A stretch of DNA of 64,000 nt from Sneathiella glossodoripedis JCM 23214 (GTDB lineage Bacteria > Pseudomonadota > Alphaproteobacteria > Sneathiellales > Sneathiellaceae). The stretch spans positions 610,452-674,451 of the forward strand of contig NZ_BAMS01000002.1 of the NCBI RefSeq assembly GCF_000616095.1, written 5' to 3'. A model generated the notes under the pieces. That model saw nothing but the letters and a program-made list of their open reading frames with translations, was not told the origin of the DNA and did not search any database. The position numbers and the translations under genes are program-made. This document shows, piece by piece, positions 44,936-45,979 of the stretch (its first letter is position 1; each line of letters starts with the position of its first letter).

Positions 44936-44962
44936 AAAAACCCCGCACAAGGCGGGGTTTTT
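44936..44962. terminator. Bidirectional terminator at the prophage edge
   Basis: AAAACCCCGC (44937-44946) pairs with GCGGGGTTTT (44952-44961) around a 5-nt loop, with A and T runs on both sides. It can end the plus-strand membrane-protein gene and any minus-strand transcript of the tRNA site. Confidence 0.85.
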
Positions 44963-44964
44963 GA

Positions 44965-45014
44965 TGGGGCGAATGACCGGGATCGAACCGGCGACCTCCT
45001 GAGTCACAGTCAGA
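44965..45014 (-). other. attachment site: 3' half of a tRNA-His gene
   Basis: From the anticodon arm to CCA a tRNA is intact: loop CTGTGAC (GTG anticodon at 45007-45005), 3' anticodon strand TCAGG, variable loop AGGTC, T arm GCCGGTTCGATCCCGGT, acceptor strand CATTCGC, discriminator C and CCA. Discriminator C with a GTG anticodon points to tRNA-His. The 5' half (acceptor strand GCGAATG, D arm) is absent and phage-like sequence takes its place. The intact tRNA should lie beyond the right edge, at the other end of the element. Confidence 0.8.
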
Positions 45015-45132: not shown

Positions 45133-45342
45133 ATGAAGGATCAAGACATTCAATACCTCATAGACGGAGGGTTTATTTTAAGGCCGCTGTGTAATGCTTG
45201 TGGGCATTCAGGAGTGATTGATCCGCTTGAATTAGGTGTGCCTCCAGAGACAAAGCTTAGCAGGTTAAAGTGCTCTAAATGCGGGTCTCGTGATATTTAT
45301 AGCGTTATTGGGACTAGATATGCTTATGAGACTTTTAGATAA
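45133..45342 (+). CDS. Small zinc-ribbon protein
   Basis: A 69-aa plus-strand product with CNACGHSG and, 20 residues on, CSKCGSRD, a two-CxxC zinc ribbon. The rest is hydrophilic, and it ends TRYAYETFR. Such small ribbons are common in prophages and often bind nucleic acid or partner proteins; the exact role is unknown. It lies between the att repeats and a terminator whose T-run favours the minus strand. Confidence 0.7.
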   Translation: MKDQDIQYLIDGGFILRPLCNACGHSGVIDPLELGVPPETKLSRLKCSKCGSRDIYSVIGTRYAYETFR

Positions 45343-45390
45343 AAAACCCCTCGGTTTGCACATCGTTTGAGAGGTGTGAGGGGTGTTGTT
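45341..45390 (-). ncRNA. Candidate hairpin RNA of about 50 nt with its own promoter
   Basis: A perfect minus-strand promoter (-35 TTGTTA 45425-45420, 17-nt spacer, -10 TATAAT 45402-45397) would start RNA near 45390. Only 50 nt later ACCCCTC (45384-45378) pairs with GAGGGGT (45352-45346) and is followed by six T, an intrinsic terminator. An inner CACA/TGTG pair extends the stem. No ORF fits. The transcript would be essentially one hairpin, ending at the stop codon of the convergent zinc-ribbon gene. It could instead be read only as a terminator. Confidence 0.55.
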
Positions 45391-45396
45391 AATCGC

Positions 45397-45444
45397 ATTA
45401 TACCCCAATAAAGGCTTGTTAACAATACATTATTTTTATATAAT
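45397..45444. promoter_or_regulatory. Divergent promoters sharing the palindrome TTGTTAACAA
   Basis: Rightward: TTGTTA 45416-45421, 17-nt spacer, TATAAT 45439-45444. Leftward: TTGTTA 45425-45420, 17-nt spacer, TATAAT 45402-45397. The two -35 hexamers overlap in the 10-bp palindrome at 45416-45425, so only one polymerase can bind at a time. Both hexamer pairs and both spacers are identical. Confidence 0.75.
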
Positions 45445-45450
45445 GGAGGG

Positions 45451-45660
45451 GTAAGGTAGCAAGCGCTTGGGATGAAGGCATCCGACTGTAGGTATTCGAA
45501 GTCCTACCGCCTCGCAAGGGTTAGAAAGAGTATCGACACTCCAAGGCAGCCGGGGTAGCGTCCGGCCCTTACATTTAGGGGTGTGAGCCGAAATCACGGT
45601 TGGTACCGTGCCGCACTTTGCTGTCGGATGTCTTTTAGACTAGGCTCACGCTTCCCTTAA
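45451..45660 (+). ncRNA. Structured RNA with pseudoknot, candidate riboswitch-like leader
   Basis: Starts at the predicted rightward start site. Outer stem: TAAGG 45452-45456 with CCTTA 45655-45659, and AAGCG 45461-45465 with CGCTT 45649-45653. P1: 12 bp, 45475-45486 with 45623-45634. Inside P1 are hairpins GTAGG/CCTAC (45488-45507), GAGT/ACTC (45528-45541), AAGG-GCCGG/CCGGC-CCTT (45543-45570) and CACGGT/ACCGTG (45595-45610). GTGAGCC 45583-45589 pairs with GGCTCAC 45643-45649, crossing P1 as a pseudoknot. CCTTAA 45655-45660 can alternatively pair with TTAAGG 45669-45674, hiding the ribosome binding site of the next gene. No known RNA family was recognised. Confidence 0.7.
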
Positions 45661-45682: not shown

Positions 45683-45979
45683 ATGAGACCTAGAGGCGAT
45701 GAATTGATTGAAGGTTGGGGCGGTATTGATGGTGGTAGTAGTTTCATCACCCCACACTCAAGCACATGAAAGATTGGTGAGCCTGAGCGTCAACCAAACG
45801 GAAGCATCTTCCAGTTAATCGAGACCTCAGACGGGTCTATGGTTTTAGGTGTGAGGATTATTTCTGGGGATGGCGGGTATGACCTTATGATCAACCGAAG
45901 CATCACGGAAAATGATATTATGTGGGCTGAAAAGATTTACCGAGAGGCTAACACAGGACAACGAGCGGCAAGTAAATGA
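45683..45979 (+). CDS. Phage small protein with an in-frame TGA at codon 29
   Basis: ATG at 45683 with AAGGA 7 nt upstream. The frame is open for 98 codons except one TGA at 45767-45769, inside PHSST-stop-KIGEPERQPNG. It ends with TGA overlapping the next ATG (ATGA), so coupling to the downstream gene only makes sense if the whole frame is used. TGG (Trp) would restore it by one base. Whether this is a true nonsense mutation, readthrough or a sequence error is open. The downstream part (SIFQLIETSDGSMVLGVRI) has no recognised family. It is led by the structured RNA. Confidence 0.55.

Follow-up and report, generated by a model that had tools for sequence, protein, structure and literature searches.

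Relatives of the abiF RNA are antitoxin RNAs encoded directly upstream of the HEPN ribonuclease (RNase) toxin AbiF, and the RNAs that phages use in counter-defence include RNA anti-CRISPRs and ToxI mimics. Here we describe a locus at the left end of a prophage in Sneathiella glossodoripedis JCM 23214, located at positions 45,397–45,444 of a 64,000-nt stretch (the window; contig NZ_BAMS01000002.1, positions 610,452–674,451), in which two mirror-image promoters are predicted to produce an abiF RNA lacking an AbiF gene on the minus strand and a second structured RNA on the plus strand.

One such antitoxin RNA is RCd22 of Clostridioides difficile, which contains two abiF motifs, neutralises AbiF-Cd both in cis and in trans through direct binding, and depends on intact stems for its activity (PMC12373285). 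AbiF is held to be an ancestor of Cas13 (PMC12373285; PMC12737573). An abiF small RNA (sRNA) has also been reported in the lytic cyanophage S-CREM1 and thought likely to be functional, with three phages represented in Rfam, and the passages concerned propose no role for it as an AbiF inhibitor (PMC9964418); a review repeats the S-CREM1 sRNA with its role unconfirmed (PMC12197685). Phage tRNAs have been proposed to serve in counter-defence (PMC11555353). In the open-access literature, we found no proposal of a phage RNA that inhibits AbiF.

The window RNA resembles RF03085, RCd22 and AbiFr in forming a two-stem hairpin with the CCUCUCA..ACGAUG..CAAA signature above the Rfam cut-off. In contrast to the RCd22 and AbiFr systems, it has no AbiF gene adjacent to it or elsewhere in the genome, and its own promoter is shared divergently with another RNA; unlike ToxI-like arrays and the two-motif RCd22, it is present as one abiF copy. 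It shares with the S-CREM1 sRNA a solitary position in a phage lacking Abi_2, the AbiF protein domain; however, the S-CREM1 copy lies in a cluster of tRNAs and non-coding RNAs, 5′ of a tRNA, whereas the window copy stands alone with a promoter and a tail of six U residues (U6). As with RNA anti-CRISPRs and ToxI mimics, a phage RNA copies the RNA component of a defence, but here the presumed target is AbiF and the inhibition is putative. The parallel with phage tRNAs is positional, as most viral orphan abiF RNAs lie directly 5′ of phage tRNAs, although the abiF RNA is presumably a protein-binding hairpin and the window copy lies outside any tRNA cluster.

The minus RNA is an orphan abiF RNA

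The initial annotation had described a short hairpin RNA in the minus direction, and the predicted minus transcript indeed consists of a hairpin followed by U6, with the following features:

45425–45420, minus strand: −35 element TTGTTA of the minus promoter
45402–45397, minus strand: −10 element TATAAT of the minus promoter, after a 17-nt spacer; start predicted near 45390
45383–45346, minus strand: orphan abiF RNA (RF03085), 38.2 bits against a gathering cut-off of 37
45346–45341, minus strand: terminator-like U6 tail that follows the hairpin

The match to RF03085 had an E-value of 4.6e-5 in a 1.3-kb search and 3.0e-5 genome-wide, and its hairpin starts 7 nt past the start predicted for the minus promoter. 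It comprises stem P1 (CCCCUC/GAGGGG), stem P2 (CAC/GUG), the loop CUCUCAAACGAU and the 3′ strand CAAACC. Compared with the Rfam consensus, both stems are altered yet still paired, with no non-standard pair marked, while the loop and 3′-strand letters CUCUCA, ACGAU and CAAA are retained. By score, pairing and retained letters, the predicted minus RNA is a member of the abiF RNA family. The hairpin has a z-score of −2.56, and a pattern scanner with a loop limit of 8 did not list this terminator-like element.

A scan of the whole genome with RF03085 found this single copy and no array. The Abi_2 profile (PF07751) gave no match at E 1 across the whole, 100%-complete genome, including the sequence downstream of the abiF RNA.

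Orphan abiF RNAs recur in phages

A search by loop pattern recovered abiF-like RNAs on at least 120 viral contigs (loci L003–L122). P1 formed at least 5 of 6 pairs at fixed spacing in 105 of the 120 viral matches listed, and P2 was fully paired in 118 of them. The mean number of P1 pairs was 5.24, versus 4.37 (maximum 4.53) when the 3′ arms were redealt among copies 500 times. PF07751, run on the whole records of 100 of the 120 viral matches listed (all but L103–L122), matched in none of one set of 50 and in one of the other 50. A home-made hidden Markov model (HMM) of AbiF, applied to all 120 loci, found as its only Abi_2 the one already known, at L100, which is a true RNA–AbiF pair on a viral contig.

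Ten complete phages were drawn from 52 pattern-matching phage records: S-CREM1, S-SRM01, S-SZBM1, Optimus, Redno2, T7-Ah, PZL-Ah8, PZL-Ah152, CGphi29 and Mimi. Abi_2 was not found in any of these ten complete records carrying an abiF RNA. The RNA exceeded the Rfam cut-off in all three phages scanned (S-CREM1, T7-Ah and Optimus), and its call in the other seven was based on loop pattern and sequence. Several of the remaining phage records, such as those of Propionibacterium phages and Cornie, are short partial matches that probably arose by chance. In T7-Ah and PZL-Ah8, related T7-like phages of Aeromonas, the abiF RNA occupies the same site between the connector and scaffold genes, and the stems (GCCCGAC/GTCGGGC vs ACCCGCC/GGCGGGT) differ by two compensated changes, the CCTCTCAACGATGCAC stretch being identical.

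A tRNA lay within 300 nt of the abiF RNA in 77 of the 120 viral matches listed, against 24.3 expected at random positions, and 66 of the 120 were 11–17 nt 5′ of a same-strand tRNA, counts that are inflated by redundancy among related phages (103 distinct contexts). Since the distance was counted from CAAA, the hairpin itself ends ~3–9 nt before the tRNA. The nearest tRNA was Arg(UCU) in 46 of these 77 tRNA-linked loci. RNase P cleavage at the tRNA would release the abiF RNA. Among the 120 bacterial matches listed, described below, none had a tRNA within 300 nt.

A region of the Lactococcus phage sk1 reportedly protects phage 712 against AbiF. A scan of sk1 returned no abiF RNA that reached the Rfam cut-off; the phage has a long non-coding region in which two tRNA-like genes lie (L124:27380–28000).

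AbiF toxins and abiF RNAs in bacteria

Within the class, an abiF RNA scored above the cut-off in 2 of 385 genomes, namely the window genome and one other (G218). Abi_2 directly adjoins the RNA in G218 and the weaker matches in G433 and G156, and the locus of another weak match, in G294, contains no Abi_2. The same genus encodes an AbiF (G012; 192 bits) that matches the solved PbAbiF 8vz6 with an E-value of 5.9e-37. A hairpin preceding this same-genus AbiF (L361:2165–2260, minus strand) is unlike RF03085 and perhaps represents a second type of antitoxin RNA.

In a broader bacterial sample, the same loop pattern gave at least 120 genome matches. Among the 120 listed, Abi_2 adjoined the RNA in 47, was not adjacent in 52 according to the home-made HMM, and could not be assessed in 21 with too little downstream DNA; 28 of the 120 listed had no good P1 and may be chance matches. 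Of these 52 adjacent-negative loci, 50 were traced to 49 genomes, 25 of which do hold Abi_2 somewhere. The HMM was built from one seed and is narrow, and some of these 25 may have an adjacent Abi_2 after all. Some genomes with solitary abiF RNAs carry broken Abi_2 pieces, that is, frames with stops. Near-identical abiF RNAs recur in Prevotella-like genomes with no adjacent Abi_2 match (L243, L244, L265, L299, L316 and others).

Two identical promoters share one palindrome

The abiF RNA promoter is one of a divergent pair, completed by these elements:

45416–45425, both strands: 10-bp palindrome TTGTTAACAA, common to both −35 hexamers; single copy in 104 kb
45416–45421, plus strand: −35 element TTGTTA of the plus promoter
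45439–45444, plus strand: −10 element TATAAT of the plus promoter, after a 17-nt spacer; start predicted near 45451

In each promoter, 10 of 12 hexamer positions fit the sigma-70 consensus, and the palindrome arises because the two −35 hexamers overlap by 2 bp (45420–45421). The geometry proposed in the initial annotation, TTGTTA-N17-TATAAT on both strands with the −35 hexamers overlapping in a 10-bp palindrome, thus holds at the positions given there, as does the claim that such symmetry exceeds chance. Divergent pairs with at least 10/12 matches and overlapping −35 elements occurred once in 104 kb (the window together with adjoining sequence). None of 40 dinucleotide shuffles of the window contained such a pair, and of 20,000 shuffles of the local 65 bases, 4 did. 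At a threshold of 9/12, overlapping divergent pairs were ordinary, with 2 in the window and a shuffle mean of 0.78.

The exact mirror pattern ATTATA-N13-TTGNNNNCAA-N13-TATAAT was present on 6 viral contigs, and the examined stretches of all 6 contained no abiF RNA. As the pattern is rare and unconnected with abiF RNA or RNA2 (the phage RNA family described below), it does not form a recurrent device, and the symmetry is probably a local feature. Searches with distant blastn settings in phage and plasmid collections returned no relative of the whole locus, and the 24 other genomes of the family contained no homologous locus.

The palindrome was also considered as a repeated operator of the prophage repressor and ruled out, as one exact copy exists in 104 kb. 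LexA-like spacings sought around it were not found nearby, and no dedicated regulator acting between or over the promoters was assigned. The anatomy is most simply accounted for by two constitutive back-to-back promoters that yield two RNAs from a short stretch of DNA.

The plus RNA is a divergent relative of a phage RNA family

The initial annotation had predicted a structured leader in the plus direction. The plus transcript does fold, with stability that is not exceptional (z −1.06; z −0.94), and contains two features of interest:

45451–45572, plus strand: RNA2-like module, the first 122 nt of the plus transcript; its minimum-energy fold holds P1 and P3
45549–45566, plus strand: P3 hairpin GCCGGGGUAGCGUCCGGC, an exact sequence match shared with phage RNA2

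A blastn search with the plus RNA revealed one recurring hairpin, CCGGGGTAGCGTCCGG, in otherwise dissimilar intergenic RNAs of phages, and this hairpin was then found in 101 viral stretches. From 35 copies with a clear 5′ hairpin we aligned 22, setting aside the copy in this prophage and 12 others that were longer or near-duplicates. The alignment has the layout P1, P2 (with a GAAAGCAGA loop) and P3, with 96.2% of cells paired and 80 double-change cells versus 19.2 (sd 4.2) in shuffles; in P1, both sides have changed at 8 of 9 pairs. At 13 loci with the hairpin, Rfam 15 matched nothing except tRNA. On this comparative evidence, RNA2 is a covariation-supported phage RNA family that is unmatched in Rfam at the 13 loci scanned. 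Among the 385 genomes of the class, two contain the hairpin with at most one mismatch.

In the window, P1 consists of GUAAGG (45451–45456) and CCUUAC (45567–45572), 6 bp in all, with the 3′ strand directly after P3; this assignment is based on fold and position, and the pairing script instead scored a longer pairing (9, with G–U pairs) further upstream. The P2 hairpin with its GAAAGCAGA loop is absent from the 260 nt upstream of the window P3 hairpin. The window plus RNA is a partial, divergent relative of RNA2 and, being phage-associated, may act on the host.

Three further observations concern these RNAs. The same prophage carries a canonical RNA2 copy with P2 present, ~35 kb away at ~80.0 kb of the extended window (L126:15985–16100, plus strand). 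RNA2 lay within 300 nt of a tRNA in 10 of 94 distinct contexts, against 2.6 expected. In the plus RNA, a possible crossing pair was noticed by eye between GTGAGCC (45583–45589) and GGCTCAC (45643–45649), for which there are no homologues.

Prophage setting

The locus had been placed near a prophage edge, and an attachment site was found beside it:

44961–45013, minus strand: attL, a copy of the tRNA-His 3′ region, identified as a repeat found inside the intact tRNA-His
45133–45342, plus strand: 69-aa open reading frame (ORF), zinc-ribbon-like, though no match reaches its Pfam cut-off; it converges on the abiF RNA

The attR copy lies inside the intact tRNA-His ~38.9 kb rightward, adjoining an integrase-like ORF named by eye, so that the promoter locus is positioned ~330 bp inside attL of a complete-looking 38.9-kb prophage in tRNA-His. 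The same prophage is present in IMG/VR, trimmed at 45976. Going inward, the first gene to match a profile is a class-3 lipase-like ORF, followed by a phage lysozyme, and a protein search in IMG/VR with the nearest gene returned the same prophage only. The 69-aa ORF has one distant relative, at 33% identity. Beyond the plus RNA (45683–45979, plus strand), a 28-codon ORF with an ATG near 45683, read by eye, ends early and is followed by a further small ORF (45839–45979, plus strand), possibly a broken gene.

Interpretation

With moderate confidence, and reasoning from sequence, we read the locus as a compact accessory ('moron') locus of two RNAs, sited at the attL end, that includes a phage-borne mimic of the AbiF antitoxin. 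One palindrome gives overlapping −35 elements to two identical divergent promoters, from one of which the prophage would express the abiF RNA as a trans-acting antitoxin mimic. The mimic would bind the AbiF HEPN RNase of the host or of a competing element as a cognate antitoxin does, and the bound AbiF would stay inactive during phage establishment, residence or induction. Since the phage RNA shares its fold and loop with RCd22, and would be made in excess of any toxin, it should act likewise. A polymerase at one promoter probably shuts out the other promoter, so that the pair would set a ratio between the two RNAs and not act as a regulated switch.

Several observations weigh against this antitoxin mimic. 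The window RNA is only 1.2 bits over the cut-off, has an extra A in its loop, and is not tRNA-linked, contrary to most viral copies. The sequence before the same-genus AbiF holds no abiF RNA at the Rfam level, and a different hairpin stands there, so the toxin of that genome may not accept the phage RNA. The 52 listed bacterial copies with no adjacent Abi_2 are numerous enough that solitary copies are not specific to phages. Furthermore, ORFs of 80 aa or more overlap 26 of the 120 viral matches listed. The viral sample is non-random, mostly fragmentary and redundant in its phylogeny, its 120 matches representing 103 distinct contexts.

An alternative that we regard as unlikely is that the locus is a decayed type III toxin–antitoxin system whose toxin gene was lost, leaving the RNA and its promoter. 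Genuine RNA–AbiF pairs exist on viral contigs (L100) and on prophages (PMC12373285), and broken Abi_2 pieces occur in some genomes with solitary abiF RNAs. However, the PF07751 scan detected no Abi_2 remnant in the window genome, the promoter is close to consensus, the hairpin is intact, and unrelated lytic phages repeatedly carry orphan copies with compensated stems, a pattern that decay would not predict.

We consider it improbable that the locus is a regulatory switch in which exclusion at the shared −35 elements sets two alternative prophage states, a built-in either/or choice suggested by the initial annotation. The exact symmetry is beyond chance, and the overlapping −35 hexamers imply that polymerases compete, so mutual exclusion is likely; this part of the earlier proposal is supported by the geometry and otherwise remains inferential. 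The choice itself is not borne out, as the palindrome is single in 104 kb with no repeated operator, no relative with the promoter pair appeared in the 24 family genomes or the phage and plasmid collections, neither RNA is known to regulate the other, and two equal promoters are not bistable in the absence of feedback. With no regulator, such promoters set an RNA ratio and not a switch.

Equally improbable is that the hairpin is chiefly an intrinsic terminator, of its own transcript or of the convergent ORF, with a fortuitous family match: its GC-rich stem with U6 and a score barely over the cut-off fit this, but the conserved loop and CAAA strand are irrelevant to termination, the match reaches E 3.0e-5 over the genome, and the hairpin begins 7 nt past the start predicted from its promoter.

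Extending the antitoxin mimic beyond this prophage, we tentatively suggest that phages broadly use stand-alone abiF RNAs as trans inhibitors of the AbiF/Cas13-lineage HEPN RNase, that tRNA-rich phages pair the inhibitor, freed by RNase P, with a replacement tRNA that is often Arg(UCU), that this prophage gives it a promoter and U6 tail instead, and that RNA2 is a further effector RNA. If true, a ~40-nt RNA would provide counter-defence against a toxin family held to be ancestral to Cas13, in parallel to RNA anti-CRISPRs, and there would be a testable reason for the toxin-less abiF RNA in phages and for its adjacency to tRNAs.
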